Part shown: one piece after another, positions 5,655 through 63,872 of the stretch
How positions within the stretch are numbered: the stretch's first letter is position 1
Layout: each line of letters begins with the position of its first letter
Origin: Arenicola marina
Lineage: Eukaryota > Annelida > Polychaeta > Arenicolidae
Reading direction: 5' to 3'
NCBI GenBank assembly: GCA_964019135.1
Contig: OZ025265.1
Location: forward strand, 7,198,318 to 7,262,317
Length of the DNA stretch: 64,000 bases
Notes under the pieces: generated by a model
Database searches by the model: none
What the model saw: the letters and a program-made list of their open reading frames with translations, nothing else
Told to the model about the DNA's origin: nothing
Position numbers and translations under genes: made by a program

Positions 5655-6431
5655 GCAGGAGTAGCCTGGATGTTGCAGAGTTTTGTAGAATTTGGATGTT
5701 GTAGAATGTTGGAAGTTTGTTGAATGTTGTTGTATGATGTTGGATGTTGTATGATGTTAGATGTAAGAAGTCGGGTGTTGTGGATGTTGTATGATCTTGG
5801 GTGTTGTTGGAAGTTGGATTGTTGTTGTCGCTGGTTGTTGCTCCGTGTTGTTGAACTTGCATCTTTTCCGATGTTGTCGCATTGAGTGCGATTGGGATTG
5901 ATCGTGCGCACCCCGGTTGTTTGATCTTGGATGCTGGTCGATTGTTGCTATTGTTGAATGTTGTTGAGTGTTGTAGAATTTGGATGTTGTAGCATGTGGG
6001 AAGTTTTGTGGGAGGGATGTTGGATGTTGTAGGTTGTTGTATGATCTTGGATATTGTTGAATGTTGGAGTGTTTATGTTGGTATGTTCATGGATGTTGGC
6101 TGTTGTAAGAAGTCGGATGTTGCATGATATCAGATGTTGTTGAATGTTGGATTGTTGTTGTTGCTGGATGTTGTTGAGTGTTGCAGAATCTGGACGCTGG
6201 ATGTTGTAGGATGTTGGATTGCTGCTAGGTGTTGGTTGTTGTAGGATGTTGGGTGTTGCTGACGGTTTGATGTTGACTGTTGGATGTTGTAAGAAGTTGG
6301 GTGATGTGGAATGTTGGGTGTTTTGTGATCCTGGGATAAGCTGTTGGATTGTTGCAGATGCTGGATGTTGTTGAGTGTTGTAGGATTTGGATCTTGTAGG
6401 ATGTTGGATATTGTGGGATGTTAGATTGTTG
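5655..6431 (+). repeat. GT-rich long block 1 (GT-L, class a, 777 bp), type copy
   Basis: This is a degenerate minisatellite made of ATGTTG, TGTTGGA and TTGTAGG words. Positions 5701-5760 contain no C at all. It starts at GCAGGAGTAGCCTGG, replacing GGAGGAGAAGTAGGC of the monomer, and ends at GATTGTTG just before a second copy of CAAAATTTGTCGGTTTG. It carries a C-containing island at 5841-5916. Four diverged copies of a GTAGAATTTGGATGTTG-like word begin at 5685, 5973, 6183 and 6380, so the block itself looks built from ~200-400-bp subrepeats. Open frames across it are a by-product of base bias. No known element ends or domains are seen. Class a is marked by TCGCTGGTTGTTGCTCCG and GGTTGTTTGATC. 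Confidence 0.93.
5841..5916 (+). other. C-containing, CpG-rich island inside GT-L (example copy)
   Basis: Bounded by CTCCGTG and CCCCGGTTG, with seven CpGs in 76 bp inside otherwise C-poor DNA. It holds the 8-bp palindrome GTGCGCAC (5904-5911) and the short hairpin TCGCA-TTGAG-TGCGA (5877-5891). It is present in all 26 GT-L blocks and absent from all 17 GT-S blocks. I cannot match it to a tRNA, 5S or transposon end. No clear pol III A or B box is seen. Confidence 0.75.
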
Positions 6432-6611
6432 CAAAATTTGTCGGTTTGGAGGGGAAGTGGGGTTTTTAGTTTGGTAAAATGCTACTTTTCAGGTACAAAT
6501 GGTGTTTTTGGCAAATAGAATCACCTTTCTTTCGCCCATTTCCTAAATTTGGTTAATTTGGCATGGGCGATGTTAATAACACGATGTTATTGATGCAAAA
6601 TTTGTCGGTTT
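6432..6611 (+). repeat. Single-monomer linker L1 (180 bp), type copy
   Basis: A diverged satellite monomer plus the 17-bp flank duplication, found between GT-L and GT-S or between two GT-S. Marks: AAGTGGGGTTTTTAG, TTTGGTAAAATGCTAC, TTTTCAGGTAC, GGTTAATTTGGCATGGGCG and GTTAATAACACGATG. Other copies: 11185-11364, 17056-17235, 22817-22996, 27318-27497, 31114-31293, 35099-35278, 40942-41121, 46051-46230, 51294-51473, 53038-53217, 57646-57825 and 59443-59622. All 13 are exactly 180 bp. Confidence 0.92.
6575..6591. other. Short perfect hairpin unique to linker L1 (example copy)
   Basis: AATAACA-CGA-TGTTATT is a 7-bp stem with a 3-base loop. Canonical monomers have GAGTCCATGATGTTATT here and lack the left arm. 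The hairpin lies 143 bp after the start of each L1 linker. Confidence 0.75.
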
Positions 6612-7042
6612 GCAGGAGTAGCCTGGATGTTGCAGAGTTTTGTACAATTTGGATGTTGTAGGATGTTGGAAGTTTGTTGAATGTTGTTGTATGATGTTGG
6701 ATGTTGTATGATGTTAGATGTAAGAATTTCGGTGTTGTGGATGTTGTATGATCTTGGGTGTTGTTGGAAGTTGGATTGTTGTTGTTGCTGGATGTTGTTG
6801 TGTGTTGCAGAATCTGGACGCTGGATGTTGTAGGATGTTGGATTGTTGCTAGGTGTTGGTTGTTGTAGGATGTTGGTTTGATGTTGACTGTTGGATGTTG
6901 TAAGAAGTTGGGTGATGTGGAATGTTGGGTGCTTTGTGATCCTGGGGTAAGCTGTTGGATTGTTGCAGATGCTGGATGTTGTTGAGTGTTGTAGGATTTG
7001 GATCTTGTAGGATGTTGGATATTGTGGGATGTTAGATTGTTG
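6612..7042 (+). repeat. GT-rich short block 1 (GT-S, 431 bp), type copy
   Basis: It shares both ends with GT-L but lacks 346 bp: 333 bp lost between two copies of GTTGGATTGTTGTTGT(C/T)GCTGG (5813 and 6146 in the type GT-L), plus a 13-bp loss after TAGGATGTTG. It differs from GT-L by TTTTGTACAATTTGG and AAGAATTTCGGTG. Private change: GTTGTGTGTTGCAG near 6797. Confidence 0.92.
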
Positions 7043-8688: not shown

Positions 8689-9455
8689 GCAGGAGTAGCC
8701 TGGATGTTGCAGAGTTTTGTAGAATTTGGATGTTGTAGAATGTTGGAAGTTTGTTGAATGTTGTTGTATGATGTTGGATGTTGTATGATGTTAGATGTAA
8801 GAAGTCGGGTATTGTGGATGTTGTATGATCTTGGGTGTTGTTGGAAGTTGGATTGTTGTTGTTGCTGGATGTTGTTCCGTGTTGTTGAACTTGCATCTTT
8901 TCCGATGTTGTCGCATTGAGTGCGATTGGGATTGATCGTGCGCACCCCGGTTGTATGATCTTGGATGCTGGTCGACTGTTCCTATAGTTGAATGTTGTTG
9001 AGTGTTGTAGAATTTGGATGTTGTAGCATGTGGGAAGTTTTGTGGGATGGATGTTGGATGTTGTAGGTTGTTGTATGATCTTGGATATTGTTGAATGTTG
9101 GAGTGTTTAATGTCGTATGTTCATGGATGTTGGCTGTTGTAACAAGTCGGATGCTGCATGATATCAGATGTTGTTGAATGTTGGATTGTTGTTGTTGCTG
9201 GATGTTGTTGAGTGTTGCAGAATCTGGACGCTGGATGTTGTAGGATGTTGGATTGCTGCTAGGTGTTGGTTGTTGTAGGATGTTGGGTGTTGCTGACGGT
9301 TTGATGTTGACTGTTGGATGTTGTAAGAAGTTGGGTGATGTGGAATGTTGGGTGTTTTGTGATCCTGTTGGATTGTTGCAGATGCTGGATGTTGTTGAGT
9401 GTTGTAGGATTTGGATCTTGTAGGATGTTGGATATTGTGGGATGTTGGATTGTTG
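8689..9455 (+). repeat. GT-L block 2 (class b, 767 bp)
   Basis: Class b marks: TTGCTGGATGTTGTTCCG, GGTTGTATGATC, GTCGACTGTTCCTATAG, GGGATGGATG and GTTTAATGTCGTATG. It is 10 bp shorter than the type copy because GATCCTGGGGTAAGCTG is reduced to GATCCTG. First block of cluster II. Confidence 0.92.
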
Positions 9456-9633: not shown

Positions 9634-10064
9634 GCAGGAGTACCCTGGATGTTGCAGAGTTTTGTACAATTTGGATGTTGTAGGATGTTGGAAGTTTGTT
9701 GAATGTTGTTGTATGATGTTGGATGTTGTATGATGTTAGATGTAAGAATTTCGGTGTTGTGGATGTTGTATGATCTTGGGTGTTGTTGGAAGTTGGATTG
9801 TTGTTGTTGCTGGATGTTGTTGAGTGTTGCAGAATCTGGACGCTGGATGTTGTAGGATGTTGGATTGTTGCTAGGTGTTGGTTGTTGTAGGATATTGGTT
9901 TGATGTTGACTGTTGGATGTTGTAAGAAGTTGGGTGATGTGGAATGTTGGGTGTTTTGTGATCCTGGGGTAAGCTGTTGGATTGTTGCAGATGCTGGATG
10001 TTGTTGAGTGTTGTAGGATTTGGATCTTGTAGGATGTTGGATATTGTGGGATGTTGGATTGTTG
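9634..10064 (+). repeat. GT-S block 2 (431 bp)
   Basis: Begins GCAGGAGTACCCTGG rather than GTAGCCTGG, a mark shared with the blocks at 15505, 30683 and 40511, all of which follow an L1b linker. It also has TAGGATATTGG near 9889. Confidence 0.92.
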
Positions 10065-10407: not shown

Positions 10408-11184
10408 GCAGGAGTAGCCTGGATGTTGCAGAGTTTTGTAGAATTTGGATGTTGTAGAATGTTGGAAGTTTGTTGAATGTTGTTGTATGATGTTGGATGT
10501 TGTATGATGTTAGATGTAAGAAGTCGGGTGTTGTGGATGTTGTATGATCTTGGGTGTTGTTGGAAGTTGGATTGTTGTTGTCGCTGGTTGTTGCTCCGTG
10601 TTGTTGAACTTGCATCTTTTCTGATGTTGTCGCATTGAGTGCGATTGGGATTGATCGTGCGCACCCCGGTTGTTTGATCTTGGATGCTGGTCGATTGTTG
10701 CTATTGTTGAATGTTGTTGAGTGTTGTAGAATTTGGATGTTGTAGCATGTGGGAAGTTTTGTGGGAGGGATGTTGGATGTTGTAGGTTGTTGTATGATCT
10801 TGGATATTGTTGAATGTTGGAGTGTTTATGTTGGTATGTTCATGGATGTTGGCTGTTGTAAGAAGTCGGATGTTGCATGATATCAGATGTTGTTGAATGT
10901 TGGATTGTTGTTGTTGCTGGATGTTGTTGAGTGTTGCAGAATCTGGACGCTGGATGTTGTAGGATGTTGGATTGCTGCTAGGTGTTGGTTGTTGTAGGAT
11001 GTTGGGTGTTGCTGACGGTTTGATGTTGACTGTTGGATGTTGTAAGAAGTTGGGTGATGTGGAATGTTGGGTGTTTTGTGATCCTGGGGTAAGCTGTTGG
11101 ATTGTTGCAGATGCTGGATGTTGTTGAGTGTTGTAGGATTTGGATCTTGTAGGATGTTGGATATTGTGGGATGTTAGATTGTTG
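10408..11184 (+). repeat. GT-L block 3 (class a, 777 bp)
   Basis: Class a with TTTTCTGATGTTGTCG in the island (others have TTTTCCGATG). Third block of cluster II, placed between an L2 and an L1 linker. Confidence 0.92.
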
Positions 11185-11364: not shown

Positions 11365-11795
11365 GCAGGAGTAGCCTGGATGTTGCAGAGTTTTGTACAA
11401 TTTGGATGTTGTAGGATGTTGGAAGTTTGTTGAATGTTGTTGTATGATGTTGGATGTTGTATGATGTTAGATGTAAGAATTTCGGTGTTGTGGATGTTGT
11501 ATGATCTTGGGTGTTGCTGGAAGTTGGATTGTTGTTGTTGCTAGATGTTGTTGAGTGTTGCAGAATCTGGACGCTGGATGTTGTAGGATGTTGGATTGTT
11601 GCTAGGTGTTGGTTGTTGTAGGATGTTGGTTTGATGTTGACTGTTGGATGTTGTAAGAAGTTTGGTGATGTGGAATGTTGGGTGTTTTGTGATCCTGGAG
11701 TAAGCTGTTGGATTGTTGCAGATGCTGGATGTTGTTGAGTGTTGTAGGATTTGGATCTTGTAGGATGTTGGATATTGTGGGATGTTGGATTGTTG
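11365..11795 (+). repeat. GT-S block 3 (431 bp)
   Basis: Private changes: GTTGCTGGAAGTTGG, TTGCTAGATGTTG, AAGAAGTTTGGTG and CCTGGAGTAAGC. The same set recurs only in its 5871-bp duplicate at 17236. Followed by an L2 linker with AAAAGCGCTTTT. Confidence 0.92.
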
Positions 11796-12138: not shown

Positions 12139-12914
12139 GCAGGAGTAGCCTGGATGTTGCAGAGTTTTGTAGAATTTGGATGTTGTAGAATGTTGGAAGT
12201 TTGTTGAATGTTGTTGTATGATGTTGGATGTTGTATGATGTTAGATGTAAGAAGTCGGGTGTTGTGGATGTTGTATGATCTTGGGTGTTGTTGGAAGTTG
12301 GATTGTTGTTGTCGCTGGTTTTTGCTCCGTGTTGTTGAACTTGCATCTTTTCCGATGTTGTCGCATTGAGTGCGATTGGGATTGATCGTGCGCACCCCGG
12401 TTGTTTGATCTTGGATGCTGGTCGATTGTTGCTATTGTTGAATGTTGTTGAGTGTTGTAGAATTTGGATGTTGTAGCATGTGGGAAGTTTTGTGGGAGGG
12501 ATGTTGGATGTTGTAGGTTGTTGTATGATCTTGGATATTGTTGAATGTTGGAGTGTTTATGTTGGTATGTTCATGGATGTTGGCTGTTGTAACAAGTCGG
12601 ATGTTGCATGATATCAGATGTTGTTGAATGTTGGATTGTTGTTGTTGCTGGATGTTGTTGAGTGTTGCAGAATCTGGACGCTGGATGTTGTAGGATGTTG
12701 GATTGCTGCTAGGTGTTGGTTGTTGTAGGATGTTGGGTGTTGCTGACGGTTTGATGTTGACTGTTGGATGTTGTAAGAAGTTGGGTGATGTGGAATGTTG
12801 GGTGCTTTGTGATCCTGGGGTAAGCTGTTGGATTGTTGCAGATGCTGGATGTTGTTGAGTGTTGTAGGATTTGGATCTGTAGGATGTTGGATATTGTGGG
12901 ATGTTAGATTGTTG
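12139..12914 (+). repeat. GT-L block 4 (class a', 776 bp)
   Basis: Class a' differs from a by GCTGGTTTTTGCTCCG and TTGTAACAAGTCGG. One T is lost in GGATCTGTAGG, which would shift any reading frame. Last block of cluster II. Confidence 0.92.
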
Positions 12915-14559: not shown

Positions 14560-15326
14560 GCAGGAGTAGCCTGGATGTTGCAGAGTTTTGTAGAATTTGG
14601 ATGTTGTAGAATGTTGGAAGTTTGTTGAATGTTGTTGTATGATGTTGGATGTTGTATGATGTTAGATGTAAGAAGTCGGGTATTGTGGATGTTGTATGAT
14701 CTTGGGTGTTGTTGGAAGTTGGATTGTTGTTGTTGCTGGATGTTGTTCCGTGTTGTTGAACTTGCATCTTTTCCGATGTTGTCGCATTGAGTGCGATTGG
14801 GATTGATCGTGCGCACCCCGGTTGTATGATCTTGGATGCTGGTCGACTGTTCCTATAGTTGAATGTTGTTGAGTGTTGTAGAATTTGGATGTTGTAGCAT
14901 GTGGGAAGTTTTGTGGGATGGATGTTGGATGTTGTAGGTTGTTGTATGATCTTGGATATTGTTGAATGTTGGAGTGTTTAATGTCGTATGTTCATGGATG
15001 TTGGCTGTTGTAACAAGTCGGATGCTGCATGATATCAGATGTTGTTGAATGTTGGATTGTTGTTGTTGCTGGATGTTGTTGAGTGTTGCAGAATCTGGAC
15101 GCTGGATGTTGTAGGATGTTGGATTGCTGCTAGGTGTTGGTTGTTGTAGGATGTTGGGTGTTGCTGACGGTTTGATGTTGACTGTTGGATGTTGTAAGAA
15201 GTTGGGTGATGTGGAATGTTGGGTGTTTTGTGATCCTGTTGGATTGTTGCAGATGCTGGATGTTGTTGAGTGTTGTAGGATTTGGATCTTGTAGGATGTT
15301 GGATATTGTGGGATGTTGGATTGTTG
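14560..15326 (+). repeat. GT-L block 5 (class b, 767 bp)
   Basis: Duplicate of block 2. It is entered from an m1-type monomer (GAACGAGTTCATG) rather than the CCTACATTT monomer that precedes other class b blocks, which marks the duplication junction. Confidence 0.92.
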
Positions 15327-15504: not shown

Positions 15505-15935
15505 GCAGGAGTACCCTGGATGTTGCAGAGTTTTGTACAATTTGGATGTTGTAGGATGTTGGAAGTTTGTTGAATGTTGTTGTATGATGTTGGATGTTGT
15601 ATGATGTTAGATGTAAGAATTTCGGTGTTGTGGATGTTGTATGATCTTGGGTGTTGTTGGAAGTTGGATTGTTGTTGTTGCTGGATGTTGTTGAGTGTTG
15701 CAGAATCTGGACGCTGGATGTTGTAGGATGTTGGATTGTTGCTAGGTGTTGGTTGTTGTAGGATATTGGTTTGATGTTGACTGTTGGATGTTGTAAGAAG
15801 TTGGGTGATGTGGAATGTTGGGTGTTTTGTGATCCTGGGGTAAGCTGTTGGATTGTTGCAGATGCTGGATGTTGTTGAGTGTTGTAGGATTTGGATCTTG
15901 TAGGATGTTGGATATTGTGGGATGTTGGATTGTTG
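15505..15935 (+). repeat. GT-S block 4 (431 bp)
   Basis: Duplicate of the block at 9634, with the same GTACCCTGG start and TAGGATATTGG variant. Confidence 0.92.
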
Positions 15936-16278: not shown

Positions 16279-17055
16279 GCAGGAGTAGCCTGGATGTTGC
16301 AGAGTTTTGTAGAATTTGGATGTTGTAGAATGTTGGAAGTTTGTTGAATGTTGTTGTATGATGTTGGATGTTGTATGATGTTAGATGTAAGAAGTCGGGT
16401 GTTGTGGATGTTGTATGATCTTGGGTGTTGTTGGAAGTTGGATTGTTGTTGTCGCTGGTTGTTGCTCCGTGTTGTTGAACTTGCATCTTTTCTGATGTTG
16501 TCGCATTGAGTGCGATTGGGATTGATCGTGCGCACCCCGGTTGTTTGATCTTGGATGCTGGTCGATTGTTGCTATTGTTGAATGTTGTTGAGTGTTGTAG
16601 AATTTGGATGTTGTAGCATGTGGGAAGTTTTGTGGGAGGGATGTTGGATGTTGTAGGTTGTTGTATGATCTTGGATATTGTTGAATGTTGGAGTGTTTAT
16701 GTTGGTATGTTCATGGATGTTGGCTGTTGTAAGAAGTCGGATGTTGCATGATATCAGATGTTGTTGAATGTTGGATTGTTGTTGTTGCTGGATGTTGTTG
16801 AGTGTTGCAGAATCTGGACGCTGGATGTTGTAGGATGTTGGATTGCTGCTAGGTGTTGGTTGTTGTAGGATGTTGGGTGTTGCTGACGGTTTGATGTTGA
16901 CTGTTGGATGTTGTAAGAAGTTGGGTGATGTGGAATGTTGGGTGTTTTGTGATCCTGGGGTAAGCTGTTGGATTGTTGCAGATGCTGGATGTTGTTGAGT
17001 GTTGTAGGATTTGGATCTTGTAGGATGTTGGATATTGTGGGATGTTAGATTGTTG
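16279..17055 (+). repeat. GT-L block 6 (class a, 777 bp)
   Basis: Duplicate of the block at 10408, including TTTTCTGATG in the island. Confidence 0.92.
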
Positions 17056-17235: not shown

Positions 17236-17666
17236 GCAGGAGTAGCCTGGATGTTGCAGAGTTTTGTACAATTTGGATGTTGTAGGATGTTGGAAGTTTG
17301 TTGAATGTTGTTGTATGATGTTGGATGTTGTATGATGTTAGATGTAAGAATTTCGGTGTTGTGGATGTTGTATGATCTTGGGTGTTGCTGGAAGTTGGAT
17401 TGTTGTTGTTGCTAGATGTTGTTGAGTGTTGCAGAATCTGGACGCTGGATGTTGTAGGATGTTGGATTGTTGCTAGGTGTTGGTTGTTGTAGGATGTTGG
17501 TTTGATGTTGACTGTTGGATGTTGTAAGAAGTTTGGTGATGTGGAATGTTGGGTGTTTTGTGATCCTGGAGTAAGCTGTTGGATTGTTGCAGATGCTGGA
17601 TGTTGTTGAGTGTTGTAGGATTTGGATCTTGTAGGATGTTGGATATTGTGGGATGTTGGATTGTTG
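17236..17666 (+). repeat. GT-S block 5 (431 bp)
   Basis: Duplicate of the block at 11365, with the same four private changes. Confidence 0.92.
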
Positions 17667-18009: not shown

Positions 18010-18785
18010 GCAGGAGTAGCCTGGATGTTGCAGAGTTTTGTAGAATTTGGATGTTGTAGAATGTTGGAAGTTTGTTGAATGTTGTTGTATGATGTTGGAT
18101 GTTGTATGATGTTAGATGTAAGAAGTCGGGTGTTGTGGATGTTGTATGATCTTGGGTGTTGTTGGAAGTTGGATTGTTGTTGTCGCTGGTTTTTGCTCCG
18201 TGTTGTTGAACTTGCATCTTTTCCGATGTTGTCGCATTGAGTGCGATTGGGATTGATCGTGCGCACCCCGGTTGTTTGATCTTGGATGCTGGTCGATTGT
18301 TGCTATTGTTGAATGTTGTTGAGTGTTGTAGAATTTGGATGTTGTAGCATGTGGGAAGTTTTGTGGGAGGGATGTTGGATGTTGTAGGTTGTTGTATGAT
18401 CTTGGATATTGTTGAATGTTGGAGTGTTTATGTTGGTATGTTCATGGATGTTGGCTGTTGTAACAAGTCGGATGTTGCATGATATCAGATGTTGTTGAAT
18501 GTTGGATTGTTGTTGTTGCTGGATGTTGTTGAGTGTTGCAGAATCTGGACGCTGGATGTTGTAGGATGTTGGATTGCTGCTAGGTGTTGGTTGTTGTAGG
18601 ATGTTGGGTGTTGCTGACGGTTTGATGTTGACTGTTGGATGTTGTAAGAAGTTGGGTGATGTGGAATGTTGGGTGCTTTGTGATCCTGGGGTAAGCTGTT
18701 GGATTGTTGCAGATGCTGGATGTTGTTGAGTGTTGTAGGATTTGGATCTGTAGGATGTTGGATATTGTGGGATGTTAGATTGTTG
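18010..18785 (+). repeat. GT-L block 7 (class a', 776 bp)
   Basis: Duplicate of the block at 12139, including the one-base loss in GGATCTGTAGG. Last block of cluster III. Confidence 0.92.
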
Positions 18786-20919: not shown

Positions 20920-21696
20920 GCAGGAGTAGCCTGGATGTTGCAGAGTTTTGTAGAATTTGGATGTTGTAGAATGTTGGAAGTTTGTTGAATGTTGTTGTAT
21001 GATGTTGGATGTTGTATGATGTTAGATGTAAGAAGTCGGGTATTGTGGATGTTGTATGATCTTGGGTGTTGTTGGAAGTTGGATTGTTGTTGTTGCTGGA
21101 TGTTGTTCCGTGTTGTTGAACTTGCATCTTTTCCGATGTTGTCGCATTGAGTGCGATTGGGATTGATCGTGCGCACCCCGGTTGTATGATCTTGGATGCT
21201 GGTCGACTGTTCCTATAGTTGAATGTTGTTGAGTGTTGTAGAATTTGGATGTTGTAGCATGTGGGAAGTTTTGTGGGATGGATGTTGGATGTTGTAGGTT
21301 GTTGTATGATCTTGGATATTGTTGAATGTTGGAGTGTTTAATGTCGTATGTTCATGGATGTTGGCTCTTGTAACAATTCGGATGCTGCATGATATCAGAT
21401 GTTGTTGAATGTTGGATTGTTGTTGTTGCTGGATGTTGTTGAGTGTTGCAGAATCTGGACGCTGGATGTTGTAGGATGTTGGATTGCTGCTAGGTGTTGG
21501 TTGTTGTAGGATGTTGGGTGTTGCTGACGGTTTGATGTTGACTGTTGGATGTTGTAAGAAGTTGGGTGATGTGGAATGTTGGGTGTTTTGTGATCCTGGG
21601 GTAAGCTGTTGGATTGTTGCAGATGCTGGATGTTGTTGAGTGTTATAGGATTTGGATCTTGTAGGATGTTGGATATTGTGGGATGTTGGATTGTTG
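20920..21696 (+). repeat. GT-L block 8 (class b, 777 bp)
   Basis: Class b but with the full GATCCTGGGGTAAGC. Private changes: GGCTCTTGTAACAATTCGG and GTGTTATAGG. It leads directly into an L2 linker, starting cluster IV. Confidence 0.92.
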
Positions 21697-22039: not shown

Positions 22040-22816
22040 GCAGGAGTAGCCTGGATGTTGCAGAGTTTTGTAGAATTTGGATGTTGTAGAATGTTGGAAG
22101 TTTGTTGAATGTTGTTGTATGATGTTGGATGTTGTATGATGTTAGATGTAAGAAGTCGGGTGTTGTGGATGTTGTATGATCTTGGGTGTTGTTGGAAGTT
22201 GGATTGTTGTTGTCGCTGGTTGTTGCTCCGTGTTGTTGAACTTGCATCTTTTCCGATGTTGTCGCATTGAGTGCGATTGGGATTGATCGTGCGCACCCCG
22301 GTTGTTTGATCTTGGATGCTGGTCGATTGTTGCTATTGTTGAATGTTGTTGAGTGTTGTAGAATTTGGATGTTGTAGCATGTGGGAAGTTTTGTGGGAGG
22401 GATGTTGGATGTTGTAGGTTGTTGTATGATCTTGGATATTGTTGAATGTTGGAGTGTTTATGTTGGTATGTTCATGGATGTTGGCTGTTGTAAGAAGTCG
22501 GATGTTGCATGATATCAGATGTTGTTGAATGTTGGATTGTTGTTGTTGCTGGATGTTGTTGAGTGTTGCAGAATCTGGACGCTGGATGTTGTAGGATGTT
22601 GGATTGCTGCTAGGTGTTGGTTGTTGTAGGATGTTGGGTGTTGCTGACGGTTTGATGTTGACTGTTGGATGTTGTAAGAAGTTGGGTGATGTGGAATGTT
22701 GGGTGTTTTGTGATCCTGGGGTAAGCTGTTGGATTGTTGCAGATGCTGGATGTTGTTGAGTGTTGTAGGATTTGGATCTTGTAGGATGTTGGATATTGTG
22801 GGATGTTAGATTGTTG
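22040..22816 (+). repeat. GT-L block 9 (class a, 777 bp)
   Basis: Standard class a. Its right flank has AAAATGTGTCGG and GGGGTTTTCAG, private to this copy. Confidence 0.92.
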
Positions 22817-22996: not shown

Positions 22997-23427
22997 GCAG
23001 GAGTAGCCTGGATGTTGCAGAGTTTTGTACAATTTGGATGTTGTAGGATGTTGGAAGTTTGTTGAATGTTGTTGTATGATGTTGGATGTTGTATGATGTT
23101 AGATGTAAGAATTTCGGTGTTGTGGATGTTGTATGATCTTGGGTGTTGTTGGAAGTTGGATTGTTGTTGTTGCTGGATGTTGTTGAGTGTTGCAGAATCT
23201 GGACGCTGGATGTTGTAGGATGTTGGATTGTTGCTAGGTGTTGGTTGTTGTAGGATGTTGGTTTGATGTTGACTGTTGGATGTTGTAAGAAGTTGGGTGA
23301 TGTGGAATGTTGGGTGCTTTGTGATCCTGGGGTAAGCTGTTGGATTGTTGCAGATGCTGGATGTTGTTGAGTGTTGTAGGATTTGGATCTTGTAGGATGT
23401 TGGATATTGTGGGATGTTAGATTGTTG
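22997..23427 (+). repeat. GT-S block 6 (431 bp)
   Basis: Standard 431-bp form with GGGTGCTTTGTGATCC. End of cluster IV. Confidence 0.92.
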
Positions 23428-27497: not shown

Positions 27498-27928
27498 GCA
27501 GGAGTAGCCTGGATGTTGCAGAGTTTTGTACAATTTGGATGTTGTAGGATGTTGGAAGTTTGTTGAATGTTGTTGTATGATGTTGGATGTTGTATGATGT
27601 TAGATGTAAGAATTTCGGTGTTGTGGATGTTGTATGATCTTGGGTGTTGTTGGAAGTTGGATTGTTGTTGTTGCTGGATGTTGTTGAGTGTTGCAGAATC
27701 TGGACGCTGGATGTTGTAGGATGTTGGATTGTTGCTAGGTGTTGGTTGTTGTAGGATGTTGGTTTGATGTTGACTGTTGGATGTTGTAAGAAGTTGGGTG
27801 ATGTGGAATGTTGGGTGCTTTGTGATCCTGGGGTAAGCTGTTGGATTGTTGCAGATGCTGGATGTTGTTGAGTGTTGTAGGATTTGGATCTTGTAGGATG
27901 TTGGATATTGTGGGATGTTAGATTGTTG
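27498..27928 (+). repeat. GT-S block 7 (431 bp)
   Basis: Standard 431-bp form with GGGTGCTTTGTG, following an L1 linker. Corresponds to the block at 6612. Confidence 0.92.
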
Positions 27929-44153: not shown

Positions 44154-44930
44154 GCAGGAGTAGCCTGGATGTTGCAGAGTTTTGTAGAATTTGGATGTTG
44201 TAGAATGTTGGAAGTTTGTTGAATGTTGTTGTATGATGTTGGATGTTGTATGATGTTAGATGTAAGAAGTCGGGTATTGTGGATGTTGTATGATCTTGGG
44301 TGTTGTTGGAAGTTGGATTGTTGTTGTTGCTGGATGTTGTTCCGTGTTGTTGAACTTGCATCTTTTCCGATGTTGTCGCATTGAGTGCGATTGGGATTGA
44401 TCGTGCGCACCCCGGTTGTATGATCTTGGATGCTGGTCGACTGTTCCTATAGTTGAATGTTGTTGAGTGTTGTAGAATTTGGATGTTGTAGCATGTGGGA
44501 AGTTTTGTGGGAGGGATGTTGGATGTTGTAGGTTGTTGTATGATCTTGGATATTGTTGAATGTTGGAGTGTTTAATGTCGTATGTTCATGGATGTTGGCT
44601 CTTGTAACAAGTCGGATGCTGCATGATATCAGATGTTGTTGAATGTTGGATTGTTGTTGTTGCTGGATGTTGTTGAGTGTTGCAGAATCTGGACGCTGGA
44701 TGTTGTAGGATGTTGGATTGCTGCTAGGTGTTGGTTGTTGTAGGATGTTGGGTGTTGCTGACGGTTTGATGTTGACTGTTGGATGTTGTAAGAAGTTGGG
44801 TGATGTGGAATGTTGGGTGTTTTGTGATCCTGGGGTAAGCTGTTGGATTGTTGCAGATGCTGGATGTTGTTGAGTGTTGTAGGATTTGGATCTTGTAGGA
44901 TGTTGGATATTGTGGGATGTTGGATTGTTG
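44154..44930 (+). repeat. GT-L block 17 (class b, 777 bp)
   Basis: Class b, full length, with GGGAGGGATG (a class a mark) and GGCTCTTGTAACAAG. First block of cluster X, leading into an L2 linker with TTTGGCCTATTTCC and GATTTAGAGG. Confidence 0.92.
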
Positions 44931-45273: not shown

Positions 45274-46050
45274 GCAGGAGTAGCCTGGATGTTGCAGAGT
45301 TTTGTAGAATTTGGATGTTGTAGAATGTTGGAAGTTTGTTGAATGTTGTTGTATGATGTTGGATGTTGTATGATGTTAGATGTAAGAAGTCGGGTGTTGT
45401 GGATGTTGTATGATCTTGGGTGTTGTTGGAAGTTGGATTGTTGTTGTCGCTGGTTGTTGCTCCGTGTTGTTGAACTTGCATCTTTTCCGATGTTGTCGCA
45501 TTGAGTGCGATTGGGATTGATCGTGCGCACCCCGGTTGTTTGATCTTGGATGCTGGTCGATTGTTGCTATTGTTGAATGTTGTTGAGTGTTGTAGAATTT
45601 GGATGTTGTAGCATGTGGGAAGTTTTGTGGGAGGGATGTTGGATGTTGTAGGTTGTTGTATGATCTTGGATATTGTTGAATGTTGGAGTGTTTATGTTGG
45701 TATGTTCATGGATGTTGGCTGTTGTAAGAAGTCGGATGTTGCATGATATCAGATGTTGTTGAATGTTGGATTGTTGTTGTTGCTGGATGTTGTTGAGTGT
45801 TGCAGAATCTGGACGCTGGATGTTGTAGGATGTTGGATTGCTGCTAGGTGTTGGTTGTTGTAGGATGTTGGGTGTTGCTGACGGTTTGATGTTGACTGTT
45901 GGATGTTGTAAGAAGTTGGGTGATGTGGAATGTTGGGTGTTTTGTGATCCTGGGGTAAGCTGTTGGATTGTTGCAGATGCTGGATGTTGTTGAGTGTTGT
46001 AGGATTTGGATCTTGTAGGATGTTGGATATTGTGGGATGTTAGATTGTTG
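45274..46050 (+). repeat. GT-L block 18 (class a, 777 bp)
   Basis: Standard class a. Matches the block at 52261 at an offset of 6987 bp, together with both its flanks. Confidence 0.92.
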
Positions 46051-46230: not shown

Positions 46231-46626
46231 GCAGGAGTAGCCTGGATGTTGCAGAGTTTTGTACAATTTGGATGTTGTAGGATGTTGGAAGTTTGTTGAA
46301 TGTTGTTGTATGATGTTGGATGTTGTATGATGTTAGATGTAAGAATTTCGGTGTTGTGGATGTTGTATGATCTTGGGTGTTGTTGGAAGTTGGATTGTTG
46401 TTGTTGCTGGATGTTGTTGAGTGTTGCAGAATCTGGACGCTGGATGTTGTAGGATGTTGGATTGTTGCTAGGTGTTGGATGTTGTAAGAAGTTGGGTGAT
46501 GTGGAATGTTGGGTGCTTTGTGATCCTGGGGTAAGCTGTTGGATTGTTGCAGATGCTGGATGTTGTTGAGTGTTGTAGGATTTGGATCTTGTAGGATGTT
46601 GGATATTGTGGGATGTTAGATTGTTG
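46231..46626 (+). repeat. GT-S block 13 (396 bp)
   Basis: Carries the 35-bp loss. Last block of cluster X. Confidence 0.92.
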
Positions 46627-48108: not shown

Positions 48109-48871
48109 GCAGGAGTAGCCTGGATGTTGCAGAGTTTTGTAGAATTTGGATGTTGTAGAATGTTGGAAGTTTGTTGAATGTTGTTGTATGATGTTGGATG
48201 TTGTATGATGTTAGATGTAAGAAGTCGGGTGTTGTGGATGTTGTATGATCTTGGGTGTTGTTGGAAGTTGGATTGTTGTTGTCGCTGGTTGTTGCTCCGT
48301 GTTGTTGAACTTGCATCTTTTCCGATGTTGTCGCATTGAGTGCGATTGGGATTGATCGTGCGCACCCCGGTTGTTTGATCTTGGATGCTGGTCGATTGTT
48401 GCTATTGTTGAATGTTGTTGAGTGTTGTAGAATTTGGATGTTGTAGCATGTGGGAAGTTTTGTGGGAGGGATGTTGGATGTTGTAGGTTGTTGTATGATC
48501 TTGGATATTGTTGAATGTTGGAGTGTTTATGTTGGTATGTTCATGGATGTTGGCTGTTGTAAGAAGTCGGATGTTGCATGATATCAGATGTTGTTGAATG
48601 TTGGATTGTTGTTGTTGCTGGATGTTGTTGAGTGTTGCAGAATCTGGACGCTGGATGTTGTAGGATGTTGGATTGTTGCTAGGTGTTGGTTGTTGTAGGA
48701 TGTTGGTTTGATGTTGACTGTTGGATGTTGTAAGAAGTTGGGTGATGTGGAATGTTGGGTGCTTTGTGATCCTGGGGTAAGCTGTTGGATTGTTGCAGAT
48801 GCTGGATGTTGTTGAGTGTTGTAGGATTTGGATCTGTAGGATGTTGGATATTGTGGGATGTTAGATTGTTG
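48109..48871 (+). repeat. GT-L block 19 (class a, 763 bp), solitary
   Basis: Duplicate of the solitary block at 37158, with the same 13-bp and 1-bp losses. Confidence 0.92.
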
Positions 48872-50516: not shown

Positions 50517-51293
50517 GCAGGAGTAGCCTGGATGTTGCAGAGTTTTGTAGAATTTGGATGTTGTAGAATGTTGGAAGTTTGTTGAATGTTGTTGTATGAT
50601 GTTGGATGTTGTATGATGTTAGATGTAAGAAGTCGGGTATTGTGGATGTTGTATGATCTTGGGTGTTGTTGGAAGTTGGATTGTTGTTGTTGCTGGATGT
50701 TGTTCCGTGTTGTTGAACTTGCATCTTTTCCGATGTTGTCGCATTGAGTGCGATTGGGATTGATCGTGCGCACCCCGGTTGTATGATCTTGGATGCTGGT
50801 CGACTGTTCCTATAGTTGAATGTTGTTGAGTGTTGTAGAATTTGGATGTTGTAGCATGTGGGAAGTTTTGTGGGATGGATGTTGGATGTTGTAGGTTGTT
50901 GTATGATCTTGGATATTGTTGAATGTTGGAGTGTTTAATGTCGTATGTTCATGGATGTTGGCTCTTGTAACAAGTCGGATGCTGCATGATATCAGATGTT
51001 GTTGAATGTTGGATTGTTGTTGTTGCTGGATGTTGTTGAGTGTTGCAGAATCTGGACGCTGGATGTTGTAGGATGTTGGATTGCTGCTAGGTGTTGGTTG
51101 TTGTAGGATGTTGGGTGTTGCTGACGGTTTGATGTTGACTGTTGGATGTTGTAAGAAGTTGGGTGATGTGGAATGTTGGGTGTTTTGTGATCCTGGGGTA
51201 AGCTGTTGGATTGTTGCAGATGCTGGATGTTGTTGAGTGTTGTAGGATTTGGATCTTGTAGGATGTTGGATATTGTGGGATGTTAGATTGTTG
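50517..51293 (+). repeat. GT-L block 20 (class b, 777 bp)
   Basis: Class b, full length, with GGCTCTTGTAACAAG. First block of cluster XII, followed by an L1 linker. Confidence 0.92.
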
Positions 51294-51473: not shown

Positions 51474-51917
51474 GCAGGAGTAGCCTGGATGTTGCAGAGT
51501 TTTGTACAATTTGGATGTTGTAGGATGTTGGAAGTTTGTTGAATGTTGTTGTATGATGTTGGATGTTGTATGATGTTAGATGTAAGAATTTCGGTGTTGT
51601 GGATGTTGTATGATCTTGGGTGTTGTTGGAAGTTGGATTGTTGTTGTTGCTGGATGTTGTTGAGTGTTGCAGAATCTGGACGCTGGATGTTGTAGGATGT
51701 TGGATTGCTGCTAGGTGTTGGTTGTTGTAGGATGTTGGGTGTTGCTGACGGTTTGATGTTGACTGTTGGATGTTGTAAGAAGTTGGGTGATGTGGAATGT
51801 TGGGTGTTTTGTGATCCTGGGGTAAGCTGTTGGATTGTTGCAGATGCTGGATGTTGTTGAGTGTTGTAGGATTTGGATCTTGTAGGATGTTGGATATTGT
51901 GGGATGTTGGATTGTTG
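51474..51917 (+). repeat. GT-S block 14 (444 bp, lacks the 13-bp loss)
   Basis: The only 444-bp GT-S. It has the 333-bp internal loss but keeps GGGTGTTGCTGACGG, so its length is exactly 777-333. It has a GT-S start (TTTTGTACAATTTGG) and a GT-L-like 3' half, consistent with exchange or gene conversion between the two forms. Confidence 0.92.
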
Positions 51918-52260: not shown

Positions 52261-53037
52261 GCAGGAGTAGCCTGGATGTTGCAGAGTGTTGTAGAATTTG
52301 GATGTTGTAGAATGTTGGAAGTTTGTTGAATGTTGTTGTATGATGTTGGATGTTGTATGATGTTAGATGTAAGAAGTCGGGTGTTGTGGATGTTGTATGA
52401 TCTTGGGTGTTGTTGGAAGTTGGATTGTTGTTGTCGCTGGTTGTTGCTCCGTGTTGTTGAACTTGCATCTTTTCCGATGTTGTCGCATTGAGTGCGATTG
52501 GGATTGATCGTGCGCACCCCGGTTGTTTGATCTTGGATGCTGGTCGATTGTTGCTATTGTTGAATGTTGTTGAGTGTTGTAGAATTTGGATGTTGTAGCA
52601 TGTGGGAAGTTTTGTGGGAGGGATGTTGGATGTTGTAGGTTGTTGTATGATCTTGGATATTGTTGAATGTTGGAGTGTTTATGTTGGTATGTTCATGGAT
52701 GTTGGCTGTTGTAAGAAGTCGGATGTTGCATGATATCAGATGTTGTTGAATGTTGGATTGTTGTTGTTGCTGGATGTTGTTGAGTGTTGCAGAATCTGGA
52801 CGCTGGATGTTGTAGGATGTTGGATTGCTGCTAGGTGTTGGTTGTTGTAGGATGTTGGGTGTTGCTGACGGTTTGATGTTGACTGTTGGATGTTGTAAGA
52901 AGTTGGGTGATGTGGAATGTTGGGTGTTTTGTGATCCTGGGGTAAGCTGTTGGATTGTTGCAGATGCTGGATGTTGTTGAGTGTTGTAGGATTTGGATCT
53001 TGTAGGATGTTGGATATTGTGGGATGTTAGATTGTTG
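52261..53037 (+). repeat. GT-L block 21 (class a, 777 bp)
   Basis: Class a with GCAGAGTGTTGTAG near 52281 (others GCAGAGTTTTGTAG). Confidence 0.92.
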
Positions 53038-53217: not shown

Positions 53218-53613
53218 GCAGGAGTAGCCTGGATGTTGCAGAGTTTTGTACAATTTGGATGTTGTAGGATGTTGGAAGTTTGTTGAATGTTGTTGTATGA
53301 TGTTGGATGTTGTATGATGTTAGATGTAAGAATTTCGGTGTTGTGGATGTTGTATGATCTTGGGTGTTGTTGGAAGTTGGATTGTTGTTGTTGCTGGATG
53401 TTGTTGAGTGTTGCAGAATCTGGACGCTGGATGTTGTAGGATGTTGGATTGTTGCTAGGTGTTGGATGTTGTAAGAAGTTGGGTGATGTGGAATGTTGGG
53501 TGCTTTGTGATCCTGGGGTAAGCTGTTGGATTGTTGCAGATGCTGGATGTTGTTGAGTGTTGTAGGATTTGGATCTTGTAGGATGTTGGATATTGTGGGA
53601 TGTTAGATTGTTG
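53218..53613 (+). repeat. GT-S block 15 (396 bp)
   Basis: Carries the 35-bp loss. Last block of cluster XII. Confidence 0.92.
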
Positions 53614-55584: not shown

Positions 55585-56361
55585 GCAGGAGTAGCCTGGA
55601 TGTTGCAGAGTTTTGTAGAATTTGGATGTTGTAGAATGTTGGAAGTTTGTTGAATGTTGTTGTATGATGTTGGATGTTGTATGATGTTAGATGTAAGAAG
55701 TCGGGTATTGTGGATGTTGTATGATCTTGGGTGTTGTTGGAAGTTGGATTGTTGTTGTTGCTGGATGTTGTTCCGTGTTGTTGAACTTGCATCTTTTCCG
55801 ATGTTGTCGCATTGAGTGCGATTGGGATTGATCGTGCGCACCCCGGTTGTATGATCTTGGATGCTGGTCGACTGTTCCTATAGTTGAATGTTGTTGAGTG
55901 TTGTAGAATTTGGATGTTGTAGCATGTGGGAAGTTTTGTGGGATGGATGTTGGATGTTGTAGGTTGTTGTATGATCTTGGATATTGTTGAATGTTGGAGT
56001 GTTTAATGTCGTATGTTCATGGATGTTGGCTCTTGTAACAAGTCGGATGCTGCATGATATCAGATGTTGTTGAATGTTGGATTGTTGTTGTTGCTGGATG
56101 TTGTTGAGTGTTGCAGAATCTGGACGCTGGATGTTGTAGGATGTTGGATTGCTGCTAGGTGTTGGTTGTTGTAGGATGTTGGGTGTTGCTGACGGTTTGA
56201 TGTTGACTGTTGGATGTTGTAAGAAGTTGGGTGATGTGGAATGTTGGGTGTTTTGTGATCCTGGGGTAAGCTGTTGGATTGTTGCAGATGCTGGATGTTG
56301 TTGAGTGTTGTAGGATTTGGATCTTGTAGGATGTTGGATATTGTGGGATGTTGGATTGTTG
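55585..56361 (+). repeat. GT-L block 22 (class b, 777 bp)
   Basis: Class b, full length, with GGCTCTTGTAACAAG. First block of cluster XIII, leading into the window's only three-monomer linker. Confidence 0.92.
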
Positions 56362-56868: not shown

Positions 56869-57645
56869 GCAGGAGTAGCCTGGATGTTGCAGAGTTTTGT
56901 AGAATTTGGATGTTGTAGAATGTTGGAAGTTTGTTGAATGTTGTTGTATGATGTTGGATGTTGTATGATGTTAGATGTAAGAAGTCGGGTGTTGTGGATG
57001 TTGTATGATCTTGGGTGTTGTTGGAAGTTGGATTGTTGTTGTCGCTGGTTGTTGCTCCGTGTTGTTGAACTTGCATCTTTTCCGATGTTGTCGCATTGAG
57101 TGCGATTGGGATTGATCGTGCGCACCCCGGTTGTTTGATCTTGGATGCTGGTCGATTGTTGCTATTGTTGAATGTTGTTGAGTGTTGTAGAATTTGGATG
57201 TTGTAGCATGTGGGAAGTTTTGTGGGAGGGATGTTGGATGTTGTAGGTTGTTGTATGATCTTGGATATTGTTGAATGTTGGAGTGTTTATGTTGGTATGT
57301 TCATGGATGTTGGCTGTTGTAAGAAGTCGGATGTTGCATGATATCAGATGTTGTTGAATGTTGGATTGTTGTTGTTGCTGGATGTTGTTGAGTGTTGCAG
57401 AATCTGGACGCTGGATGTTGTAGGATGTTGGATTGCTGCTAGGTGTTGGTTGTTGTAGGATGTTGGGTGTTGCTGACGGTTTGATGTTGACTGTTGGATG
57501 TTGTAAGAAGTTGGGTGATGTGGAATGTTGGGTGTTTTGTGATCCTGGGGTAAGCTGTTGGATTGTTGCAGATGCTGGATGTTGTTGAGTGTTGTAGGAT
57601 TTGGATCTTGTAGGATGTTGGATATTGTGGGATGTTAGATTGTTG
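56869..57645 (+). repeat. GT-L block 23 (class a, 777 bp)
   Basis: Standard class a, first copy in the 1797-bp tandem duplication. Confidence 0.92.
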
Positions 57646-57825: not shown

Positions 57826-58221
57826 GCAGGAGTAGCCTGGATGTTGCAGAGTTTTGTACAATTTGGATGTTGTAGGATGTTGGAAGTTTGTTGAATGTTG
57901 TTGTATGATGTTGGATGTTGTATGATGTTAGATGTAAGAATTTCGGTGTTGTGGATGTTGTATGATCTTGGGTGTTGTTGGAAGTTGGATTGTTGTTGTT
58001 GCTGGATGTTGTTGAGTGTTGCAGAATCTGGACGCTGGATGTTGTAGGATGTTGGATTGTTGCTAGGTGTTGGATGTTGTAAGAAGTTGGGTGATGTGGA
58101 ATGTTGGGTGCTTTGTGATCCTGGGGTAAGCTGTTGGATTGTTGCAGATGCTGGATGTTGTTGAGTGTTGTAGGATTTGGATCTTGTAGGATGTTGGATA
58201 TTGTGGGATGTTAGATTGTTG
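57826..58221 (+). repeat. GT-S block 16 (396 bp)
   Basis: Carries the 35-bp loss. Its duplicate is at 59623. Confidence 0.92.
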
Positions 58222-58665
58222 CAAAATTTGTCGGTTTGGAGGAGAAGTGGGGTTTTTAGTTTGGTAGAATGCTACTTTTCAGGTACAAATGGTGTGTTTG
58301 GCAAATAGAATCACTTTTCTTTCGCCCATTTCCTAAATTTGGTTAATCGGGCGTGCGCGAAGGAGTCCATGATGTTATTTATGCAAAATTTGTCGATTTG
58401 GAGGAGAAGGAGGCTTTTTTAGTTTCGTAAAAAAAGTACTTTTCGGGTACAAATGGCGTTTTCGGCAAATAGAATCACTTTTCTTGCGCCCAATTCCTAA
58501 ATTTGGTTAATCGGGCATGCGCGAAGGAGTCCACGATGTTATTAATGGAAAATTTGTCGATTTGGAGGAGAAGTAGGCTTTTTTAGTTTCGTAAAAAAGT
58601 ACTTTTCGGGTACAAATGGCGTTTTCGGCAAATAGAATCACTTTTCTTTCGCCCATTGTCGGTTT
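58222..58665 (+). repeat. 163-bp satellite array S14, truncated (444 bp)
   Basis: About 2.7 monomers. This is the only satellite stretch whose length does not equal whole units plus ~16 bp, because about 61 bp (TCCTAAATTTGG to GCAAAATTT) are missing at 58657/58658. Confidence 0.93.
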
Positions 58666-59442
58666 GCAGGAGTAGCCTGGATGTTGCAGAGTTTTGTAGA
58701 ATTTGGATGTTGTAGAATGTTGGAAGTTTGTTGAATGTTGTTGTATGATGTTGGATGTTGTATGATGTTAGATGTAAGAAGTCGGGTGTTGTGGATGTTG
58801 TATGATCTTGGGTGTTGTTGGAAGTTGGATTGTTGTTGTCGCTGGTTGTTGCTCCGTGTTGTTGAACTTGCATCTTTTCCGATGTTGTCGCATTGAGTGC
58901 GATTGGGATTGATCGTGCGCACCCCGGTTGTTTGATCTTGGATGCTGGTCGATTGTTGCTATTGTTGAATGTTGTTGAGTGTTGTAGAATTTGGATGTTG
59001 TAGCATGTGGGAAGTTTTGTGGGAGGGATGTTGGATGTTGTAGGTTGTTGTATGATCTTGGATATTGTTGAATGTTGGAGTGTTTATGTTGGTATGTTCA
59101 TGGATGTTGGCTGTTGTAAGAAGTCGGATGTTGCATGATATCAGATGTTGTTGAATGTTGGATTGTTGTTGTTGCTGGATGTTGTTGAGTGTTGCAGAAT
59201 CTGGACGCTGGATGTTGTAGGATGTTGGATTGCTGCTAGGTGTTGGTTGTTGTAGGATGTTGGGTGTTGCTGACGGTTTGATGTTGACTGTTGGATGTTG
59301 TAAGAAGTTGGGTGATGTGGAATGTTGGGTGTTTTGTGATCCTGGGGTAAGCTGTTGGATTGTTGCAGATGCTGGATGTTGTTGAGTGTTGTAGGATTTG
59401 GATCTTGTAGGATGTTGGATATTGTGGGATGTTAGATTGTTG
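58666..59442 (+). repeat. GT-L block 24 (class a, 777 bp)
   Basis: Copy of the block at 56869. Its left satellite flank is cut off by the duplication junction, the only block without the full left flank. Confidence 0.92.
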
Positions 59443-59622
59443 CAAAATTTGTCGGTTTGGAGGGGAAGTGGGGTTTTTAGTTTGGTAAAATGCTACTTTT
59501 CAGGTACAAATGGTGTTTTTGGCAAATAGAATCACCTTTCTTTCGCCCATTTCCTAAATTTGGTTAATTTGGCATGGGCGATGTTAATAACACGATGTTA
59601 TTGATGCAAAATTTGTCGGTTT

Positions 59623-60018
59623 GCAGGAGTAGCCTGGATGTTGCAGAGTTTTGTACAATTTGGATGTTGTAGGATGTTGGAAGTTTGTTGAATGTTGTTG
59701 TATGATGTTGGATGTTGTATGATGTTAGATGTAAGAATTTCGGTGTTGTGGATGTTGTATGATCTTGGGTGTTGTTGGAAGTTGGATTGTTGTTGTTGCT
59801 GGATGTTGTTGAGTGTTGCAGAATCTGGACGCTGGATGTTGTAGGATGTTGGATTGTTGCTAGGTGTTGGATGTTGTAAGAAGTTGGGTGATGTGGAATG
59901 TTGGGTGCTTTGTGATCCTGGGGTAAGCTGTTGGATTGTTGCAGATGCTGGATGTTGTTGAGTGTTGTAGGATTTGGATCTTGTAGGATGTTGGATATTG
60001 TGGGATGTTAGATTGTTG
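59623..60018 (+). repeat. GT-S block 17 (396 bp)
   Basis: Copy of the block at 57826, with the 35-bp loss. Confidence 0.92.
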
Positions 60019-61989: not shown

Positions 61990-62753
61990 GCAGGAGTAGC
62001 CTGGATGTTGCAGAGTTTTGTAGAATTTGGATGTTGTAGAATGTTGGAAGTTTGTTGAATGTTGTTGTATGATGTTGGATGTTGTATGATGTTAGATGTA
62101 AGAAGTCGGGTGTTGTGGATGTTGTATGATCTTGGGTGTTGTTGGAAGTTGGATTGTTGTTGTCGCTGGTTGTTGCTCCGTGTTGTTGAACTTGCATCTT
62201 TTCCGATGTTGTCGCATTGAGTGCGATTGGGATTGATCGTGCGCACCCCGGTTGTTTGATCTTGGATGCTGGTCGATTGTTGCTATTGTTGAATGTTGTT
62301 GAGTGTTGTAGAATTTGGATGTTGTAGCATGTGGGAAGTTTTGTGGGAGGGATGTTGGATGTTGTAGGTTGTTGTATGATCTTGGATATTGTTGAATGTT
62401 GGAGTGTTTATGTTGGTATGTTCATGGATGTTGGCTGTTGTAACAAGTCGGATGTTGCATGATATCAGATGTTGTTGAATGTTGGATTGTTGTTGTTGCT
62501 GGATGTTGTTGAGTGTTGCAGAATCTGGACGCTGGATGTTGTAGGATGTTGGATTGTTGCTAGGTGTTGGTTGTTGTAGGATGTTGGTTTGATGTTGACT
62601 GTTGGATGTTGTAAGAAGTTGGGTGATGTGGAATGTTGGGTGTTTTGTGATCCTGGGGTAAGCTGTTGGATTGTTGCAGATGCTGGATGTTGTTGAGTGT
62701 TGTAGGATTTGGATCTTGTAGGATGTTGGATATTGTGGGATGTTGGATTGTTG
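61990..62753 (+). repeat. GT-L block 25 (class a, 764 bp)
   Basis: Class a island with TTGTAACAAGTCGG and the 13-bp loss only (777-13). It leads into an L2 linker whose first monomer has GGCGTTTTCGGC instead of GTGTTTTTGGC. Confidence 0.92.
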
Positions 62754-63096
62754 CAAAATTTGTCGGTTTGGAGGGGAAGTGGGGTTTTTGGTTTGGTAGA
62801 ATGCTACTTTTCAGGTACAAATGGCGTTTTCGGCAAATAGAATCACTTTTCTTTCGCACATTTCCTAAATTTGCTTAATCGGGCGTGCGCGAAGGAGTCC
62901 ATGATGTTATTGATGCAAAATTTGTCGATTTGGAGGAGAAGTAGGACTTTTTAGTTTCGTAAAAAAGCACTTTTCGGGCACAAATGGCGTTTTCGGCAAA
63001 TAGAAAATCACTTTTCTTTCGCCCATTTCCTAAATTTGGTTAATCGGGAATGCGCGAAGGAGTCCACGATGTTATTGATGCAAAATTTGTCGGTTT

Positions 63097-63872
63097 GCAG
63101 GAGTAGCCTGGATGTTGCAGAGTTTTGTAGAATTTGGATGTTGTAGAATGTTGGAAGTTTGTTGAATGTTGTTGTATGATGTTGGATGTTGTATGATGTT
63201 AGATGTAAGAAGTCGGGTGTTGTGGATGTTGTATGATCTTGGGTGTTGTTGGAAGTTGGATTGTTGTTGTCGCTGGTTTTTGCTCCGTGTTGTTGAACTT
63301 GCATCTTTTCCGATGTTGTCGCATTGAGTGCGATTGGGATTGATCGTGCGCACCCCGGTTGTTTGATCTTGGATGCTGGTCGATTGTTGCTATTGTTGAA
63401 TGTTGTTGAGTGTTGTAGAATTTGGATGTTGTAGCATGTGGGAAGTTTTGTGGGAGGGATGTTGGATGTTGTAGGTTGTTGTATGATCTTGGATATTGTT
63501 GAATGTTGGAGTGTTTATGTTGGTATGTTCATGGATGTTGGCTGTTGTAACAAGTCGGATGTTGCATGATATCAGATGTTGTTGAATGTTGGATTGTTGT
63601 TGTTGCTGGATGTTGTTGAGTGTTGCAGAATCTGGACGCTGGATGTTGTAGGATGTTGGATTGCTGCTAGGTGTTGGTTGTTGTAGGATGTTGGGTGTTG
63701 CTGACGGTTTGATGTTGACTGTTGGATGTTGTAAGAAGTTGGGTGATGTGGAATGTTGGGTGCTTTGTGATCCTGGGGTAAGCTGTTGGATTGTTGCAGA
63801 TGCTGGATGTTGTTGAGTGTTGTAGGATTTGGATCTGTAGGATGTTGGATATTGTGGGATGTTAGATTGTTG
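63097..63872 (+). repeat. GT-L block 26 (class a', 776 bp)
   Basis: Class a' with the one-base loss in GGATCTGTAGG. Last block of the window. Confidence 0.92.

Follow-up and report, generated by a model that had tools for sequence, protein, structure and literature searches.

The Arenicola marina genome assembly (867 Mb in 762 contigs) contains, on contig OZ025265.1 (C20 below), an array of a 163-bp satellite that is interrupted by GT-rich blocks. We analysed a 64,000-bp stretch of this array (C20:7198318-7262317; hereafter the window, to which positions refer unless a contig is named), in which 43 blocks, 26 of them long and 17 short, lie between 5665 and 63857 and make up 26,238 bp. Our results indicate that the blocks very probably go back to a single origin, after which block and satellite were amplified together and the block kept its phase in the monomer. 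The array belongs to a known kind, the composite satellites; its history is unusually easy to read, and no host function is needed to explain it.

Block edges were taken from a Viterbi alignment of the window to the cyclic 163-bp consensus. The satellite breaks off at phase 122 on the left of 38 blocks, at 119 in four and at 43 in one, and it resumes on the right at phase 84 in 42 blocks and at 90 in one. A sequence-only reading of the window had placed all 43 GT-rich blocks at one phase of the monomer, and this was borne out, with 42 of 43 edges in agreement on each side. The satellite between blocks measures n x 163 + 37-43 bp, apart from a single remainder of +34 and one of +125 at a breakpoint. 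The constancy of these gaps had likewise been seen correctly, and only the remainder, previously given as 15-18 bp, is replaced by 37-43 bp with the present edges; the smaller value arose because the edges had been placed about 25 bp wider, and nothing else is altered. The 444-bp gap that had been singled out as an exception is a true breakpoint, at which about 60 bp of monomer is missing beside a normal block. There (58207-58657), the left flank jumps from phase 43 to GTCGGTTTGCAGGAGTAG, which is retained, and the block at 58658 and its own flank are normal. The deviating left edge is a deletion and not a second insertion site.

Adjoining stretches were joined to the window and C20:7180001-7390000 (210 kb) was analysed for blocks, with off-satellite stretches of more than 300 bp counted as blocks and six stretches of 1-18 bp dropped. 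This region holds 158 blocks, 86 long and 72 short; two further blocks at its right end, in sample L029, lie outside the count. The left phases are 122 (134 blocks), 119 (17), 118 (6) and 43 (1), and the right phases 84 (157) and 90 (1), such that 157 of 158 edges agree on each side. Among 157 inter-block gaps, 150 equal n x 163 + 37-43 bp, and the other seven have remainders of 34, 125, 55, 29 (three times) and 31. Approximately 22 kb of bare satellite precedes the first blocks, and from 1 to 43 bare monomers separate one block from another. The order of blocks is non-random: a long block, one monomer and a short block follow each other in 65 of 157 cases, a short block, two monomers and a long block in 37, and a short block, many monomers and a long block in 28. 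The commonest long-to-long spacings are 1719, 1731-1732 and 3034-3035 bp. An odd block of 630 bp is present three times in the region.

The constant phase had been taken to exclude independent insertions. Phase alone is compatible with a site-specific inserter, and it is the shared flanks that exclude one. Because the copies are not independent, a p-value on phase alone would be meaningless, and substitutions shared by the flanks are the better test. We compared the satellite to the right of each block with 566 control windows. The array itself supplied 457 of them from its long stretches and 51 from its linkers of two or three monomers, and a reverse-strand array at 7.10 Mb supplied the other 58; windows starting less than 100 bp from the right edge of a block were excluded from the controls. 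Of 12 diagnostic substitutions, every one of the 158 right flanks has 9-12, whereas the controls have 0-2. Although these 12 sites were selected on the very data tested, the separation of flanks from controls was not. A tree was built of 100 distinct sequences, namely 23 flanks and 77 controls drawn from a sample of 200; in it the flanks fall into a single error-free clade with local support of 0.916, the outcome expected of flanking monomers under one origin. Within the window, 13 changes are common to 16-25 of the 26 long right flanks and 14 to 15-17 of the 17 short ones, and none of either set occurs in the 35 monomers of 1-5664. Strong divergence is limited to the satellite that adjoins blocks; the right flank of the first block (6417..6510, plus strand, from flank comparison) is an example with the shared substitutions.

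The two size classes are related by one deletion. In the window, long blocks measure 738-770 bp (n=26) and short blocks 371-419 bp (n=17). Removal of 333 bp from the long consensus yields the short one, the breakpoint having 17 equivalent positions within a 16-bp repeat, GTTGGATTGTTGTTGT, and the two differ otherwise by 6 of 173 positions before the deletion, 2 of 288 after it and one 13-bp gap. When short blocks were tested singly, the best deletion fell at the GTTGGATTGTTGTTGT repeat in 65 of 72. A 60-bp non-repetitive core is present in 86 of 86 long blocks and 0 of 72 short blocks, and an exact 40-mer across the junction is found in 37 of the 72 short blocks and in none of the 86 long ones. 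A fuzzy match to the junction, found in 72 of 72 short blocks but also in 68 of 86 long ones, is non-diagnostic and was not used. The block is GT-rich and internally repetitive, and the mean difference is 1.3% among long blocks and 0.8% among short ones. One copy of the block lost 333 bp between its two 16-bp internal repeats and so gave rise to the short form, as shown for 65 of the 72 short blocks.

The block is confined to this region as far as the search tag reaches. In the whole genome, a block tag of 42 bases with at most 3 mismatches gave 141 forward and 0 reverse matches; 141 were also found in the joined stretch, which places all of them in one piece. The tag marks 139 of the 158 blocks, plus two matches in L029. 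No block similarity was detected at an E-value of 1e-3 in eight samples (L009 and L033-L039) from C20, C1, C2, C3 and C4. The satellite itself is more widely distributed: a 31-mer from it has 1,339 forward and 850 reverse matches in the genome, 298 of them within the joined stretch, on several contigs, of which only C1-C4 appear among the matches listed. Occurrence on several contigs is no proof of a centromeric satellite. A 23-mer of the monomer had no match in the prokaryote collection and none in the viral collection.

Larger units that hold both satellite and block are themselves repeated. One near-identical duplication covers 14,080 bp (99.77% identity, lag 13,263; C20:7354063-7368142 and 13,263 bp onward), and further duplications include 7,607 bp at 99.5% with lag 20,392 and 6,229 bp at 99.5% with lag 5,871; overall, duplications of 6.2-7.6 kb at 99.4-99.5% occur at lags 20,392, 5,871 and 8,868. 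Pieces of about 3 to 14 kb were duplicated repeatedly; unequal crossing-over, break-induced replication and the return of excised circles into the array are possible mechanisms. Later exchanges would pair monomer with monomer, and the block would thereby keep its single phase. The sequence-only reading had proposed that a single event created the composite, which then spread with the satellite. Its core, one origin and co-amplification, agrees with the flanks, the common deletion, the tag and the duplications, but a single event is too short an account; at the least it takes an insertion, the 333-bp deletion and several rounds of duplication, and probably also a transfer from one satellite lineage to another.

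How the block was joined to the monomer can be approached from its boundaries. Because the satellite exits at phase 122 and resumes at 84, monomer phases 84-122 are present on both sides of a block. Part of this overlap is a GATGTT stretch common to the block end and the monomer. The clear direct repeat flanking the blocks is 25 bp long; its left copy most commonly reads TGCAAAATTTGTCGGTTTGCAGGAG and its right copy TGCAAAATTTGTCGGTTTGGAGGGG or GGAGGAG. With the similar GATGTT stretch added, it reaches up to about 40 bp; around the first block, its copies were read from the sequence at 5637..5661 and 6430..6454 (plus strand). The probable joining step is that a degenerate GT-rich minisatellite fragment of approximately 0.75 kb would have entered one monomer of the 163-bp satellite, leaving the 25-bp direct repeat on each side. 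It is also possible, though unlikely, that the joining step was growth in place, in which a 40-bp tandem duplication of phases 84-125 was followed by expansion of a GATGTTATTGATG motif into a GT minisatellite. The right end of the block does continue into the monomer through a similar GATGTT motif, the block is itself repetitive, and the colinear alignment of monomer and block has a score of 18, compared with a mean of 14.6 after shuffling (p = 0.065; reverse strand 1.0). However, this similarity is not significant, and the long block contains its 60-bp non-repetitive core.

The constant phase together with a 25-bp direct repeat on both sides would also be expected of a site-specific mobile element that inserted repeatedly at the same monomer phase, as R2-type elements do in ribosomal DNA (rDNA). 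We consider this explanation extremely improbable, since the 158 right flanks share private substitutions that set them apart from the 566 controls, the 141 tag matches all lie in one piece, and the eight samples mentioned above have no similarity to the block. Flank and tag tests revealed no independent copies in ordinary target sites, as a site-specific retrotransposon without long terminal repeats would leave. Terminal inverted repeats, which would mark a DNA transposon or a miniature inverted-repeat transposable element (MITE), were likewise absent from one long block, where 5600-6500 contains 0 inverted pairs of at least 10 bp. The window blocks contain 46 stop-free minus-strand frames of 170-207 amino acids, and 3 of the 46 were scanned against Pfam; none matched a family at cut-off (the best was PORR, E 0.072), a result that a non-coding fragment would also give. 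A coding function is not supported by the three frames scanned, and the CA-rich complement of the blocks suggests itself as the source of the frames. No Rfam match at gathering score, the sign of a structured RNA, was found in the window. Independent or site-specific insertion was rejected on the shared flanks, with no transposon feature seen. Nor is it at all probable that the regularity is an artefact, produced in assembly when repeats were collapsed or extended wrongly. The piece lies between 200-N gaps and one 14-kb duplication is 99.77% identical, as an artefact might leave them; but the one continuous piece contains 51 different long and 25 different short block sequences, and an artefact would not produce a dozen shared substitutions tied to the block.

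In addition to marking one origin, the flanks differ from the array in a way that may point to another satellite lineage. The linker monomer that lies between long and short blocks has a consensus with 24 substitutions relative to that of the array. Six linker states are common in the C4 sample (62T, 76T, 79A, 83C, 146T and 148C) and seven match the consensus of the C3 sample (61T, 62T, 79A, 83C, 139G, 146T and 148C), while 0 of 24 exceed 30% in the C1, C2 or C20 samples. The mean distance to the linker is 14.5% for C4, 16.1% for C3, 16.6% for C20 and 18% for C1 and C2. A tree of the six commonest linkers and no more than 28 distinct monomers from each sample, in which C3 is not represented, groups the linkers with 27 C4 and 5 C1 monomers (support 0.878). 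To judge from these comparisons, the satellite attached to the block resembles the C4 satellite, and the C3 satellite in shared states only, more than the local kind. A second satellite subfamily was observed in samples L034 and L039 (C4) and L036 (C3), whose consensus is without a base at phase 128 and carries 62T, 79A, 83C, 146T and 148C.

The derived tract ends at sharp points. On the right (n=157), 53 flanks are derived to the last of 20 sites, with two inner sites of array type through gap placement, and the array type begins between phases 12-28 in 97, between 28-61 in 2 and between 157-6 in 5. On the left, all 157 flanks that have letters at site 114 are derived there; of these, 53 show the derived state at every site save 94, 36 carry only site 114 before the array type, and 48 and 20 also carry 109, with or without 83. 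This pattern of transitions suggests few crossovers followed by copying. We lean towards a history in which the cassette of a long block, one diverged monomer and a short block would have been built in a satellite lineage nearer C4 and would have entered the C20 array by homologous exchange, with the right crossover at phases 12-28 and the left near 109-114. The transfer step could be replaced by divergence of the flanks in place after insertion, with the heterology of the block preventing homogenisation, and this we regard as possible but rather unlikely. It would fit the confinement of strong divergence to satellite that touches a block, and a linker distance to C3 hardly smaller than that to the C20 array. 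In contrast, it does not account for the seven linker states found also in the C3 consensus and the six found in the C4 sample, or for a derived tract whose end falls within one short interval in 97 of the 157 flanks, like a copied crossover. A more daring version of the transfer seems improbable: the cassette, with a few dozen to about 200 bases of a foreign satellite lineage around the insert, would be a mobile unit guided by homology, which left a C3/C4-type array, perhaps as an excised circle, and landed in C20 via monomer pairing.

Several observations weigh against parts of the history preferred here, namely one origin, a deletion, a transfer and co-amplification. With regard to location, 200-N gaps bound the piece at both ends and repeat alone was read, such that the placement on C20 rests on scaffolding across the gaps. 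Of the 158 blocks, 19 lack the tag (14 of 742 bp, 3 of 630 bp and 2 of 396 bp), and since untagged block types exist, such copies may occur elsewhere; a wider block search gave 198 matches, all on C20 among the matches listed. The source of the GT block was not found, and the weak colinear similarity between block and monomer (p = 0.065) is compatible with growth of the block from the satellite. The one-deletion test placed the deletion elsewhere in 7 of 72 short blocks (371 or 372 bp), which have lost a further piece; the 371-bp type shows the same deletion junction in a separate alignment, one that misplaced the 5' part of the short blocks. As for the transfer, 11 of the 24 linker states exceed 2% in C1, 83C also occurs in 24% of C20 array monomers, and C3 is hardly nearer the linker than the C20 array (16.1% vs 16.6%), being near in shared states only. 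Both the frequency of 83C in the array and the distance of C3, which is no nearer, weaken the transfer step. A 200-bp linker type is nearest C20 (12.3%) rather than C4 (14.0%), because it is mostly of array type. Finally, the trees are unrooted, and the shared states could be retained ancestral ones.

All features located here lie on the plus strand, and the blocks were placed by consensus alignment unless stated otherwise. Long blocks occupy 5665..6416, 8699..9440, 10418..11169, 12149..12899, 14570..15311, 16289..17040, 18020..18770, 20930..21681, 22050..22801, 26551..27302, 29748..30489, 32078..32829, 34339..35091 (the block with its right edge at phase 90), 37168..37905, 39576..40317, 41906..42656, 44164..44915, 45284..46035, 48119..48856, 50527..51278, 52271..53022, 55595..56346, 56879..57630, 62000..62738 and 63107..63857, together with the block at the breakpoint (58658..59427, from alignment), of which the first 18 bp or so as called are normal flank. 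Short blocks occupy 6622..7027, 9641..10049, 11375..11780, 15512..15920, 17246..17651, 23007..23412, 27508..27913, 30690..31098, 31304..31709, 40518..40926 and 41132..41537. A second deletion, recognised by consensus alignment and the deletion test, is present in the short blocks at 35289..35659, 46241..46611, 53228..53598, 57836..58206 and 59633..60003. The short block at 51484..51902 (419 bp), according to its alignment, retains a 13-bp stretch that is absent from the 406-bp blocks.

The block-free satellite at 1..5664 is organised as a higher-order repeat of nine monomers (1467 bp) with the pattern ABACDBAEE, as determined from lag differences: monomers differ by 1.74% at lag 9 and 2.57% at lag 18, and by 4.3-5.8% at other lags to 19. 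The satellite is also present on the opposite strand, without blocks, in sample L009 (C20:7100001-7110000; about 61 monomers), and no higher-order repeat was found in this reverse-strand sample at C20:7.10 Mb. The assembly piece that carries the array spans 7,167,649-7,391,287, with a 200-N gap at either end, and consists of satellite and blocks in the part read. Across the right gap, a different satellite of 151 bp was observed (L029 1488-5000, L030, L031 and L032; samples of C20:7391488-7552000). To the left of the other gap, GC-rich minisatellites with periods of 33, 51, 83, 20, 21 and 18 bp make up most of the sampled sequence (L010, L011 and L012; C20:7130001-7140000 and 7150001-7167448).

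Comparable systems are known from other animals and from plants. In the bovine 1.711 satellites, a satellite of the 1.715 type contains an inserted segment at a fixed place, the two having been amplified together, and the inserted unit itself became a regular repeat. In contrast, the A. marina blocks alternate with 1-43 bare monomers, exist in long and short forms and are found in one array only. CHeX-Sat of Xiphophorus consists of composite tandem units over hundreds of kb, built of transposon fragments (Rex, Helitron) that were fused into a monomer of about 2 kb (PMC13277934); composite tandem units are common to both systems, with a GT minisatellite inside a 163-bp satellite in the present one. 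Subtelomeric tandem repeats of rye were co-amplified with neighbouring transposable elements at array junctions, and the authors hold that non-array sequence inside arrays cannot be common (PMC4857426). The rye and A. marina arrays are alike in that satellite and adjacent non-satellite DNA multiply jointly and multimeric units occur in the arrays. Centromeric higher-order repeats of switchgrass contain truncated monomers (PMC4053949), and there too a member of odd length was amplified with the higher-order unit; it is a deleted monomer in switchgrass and an inserted block here.

If the cassette were a homology-guided mobile unit, satellite subfamilies on different chromosomes would swap passengers at defined crossover points. 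Homogenisation tends to erase the origins of composite satellites. In this species, the steps are still readable in one 200-kb array, as one insert, one deletion, sharp crossovers and layers of duplication, with bare satellite alongside. The modes of exchange between satellite subfamilies are thus testable in A. marina.

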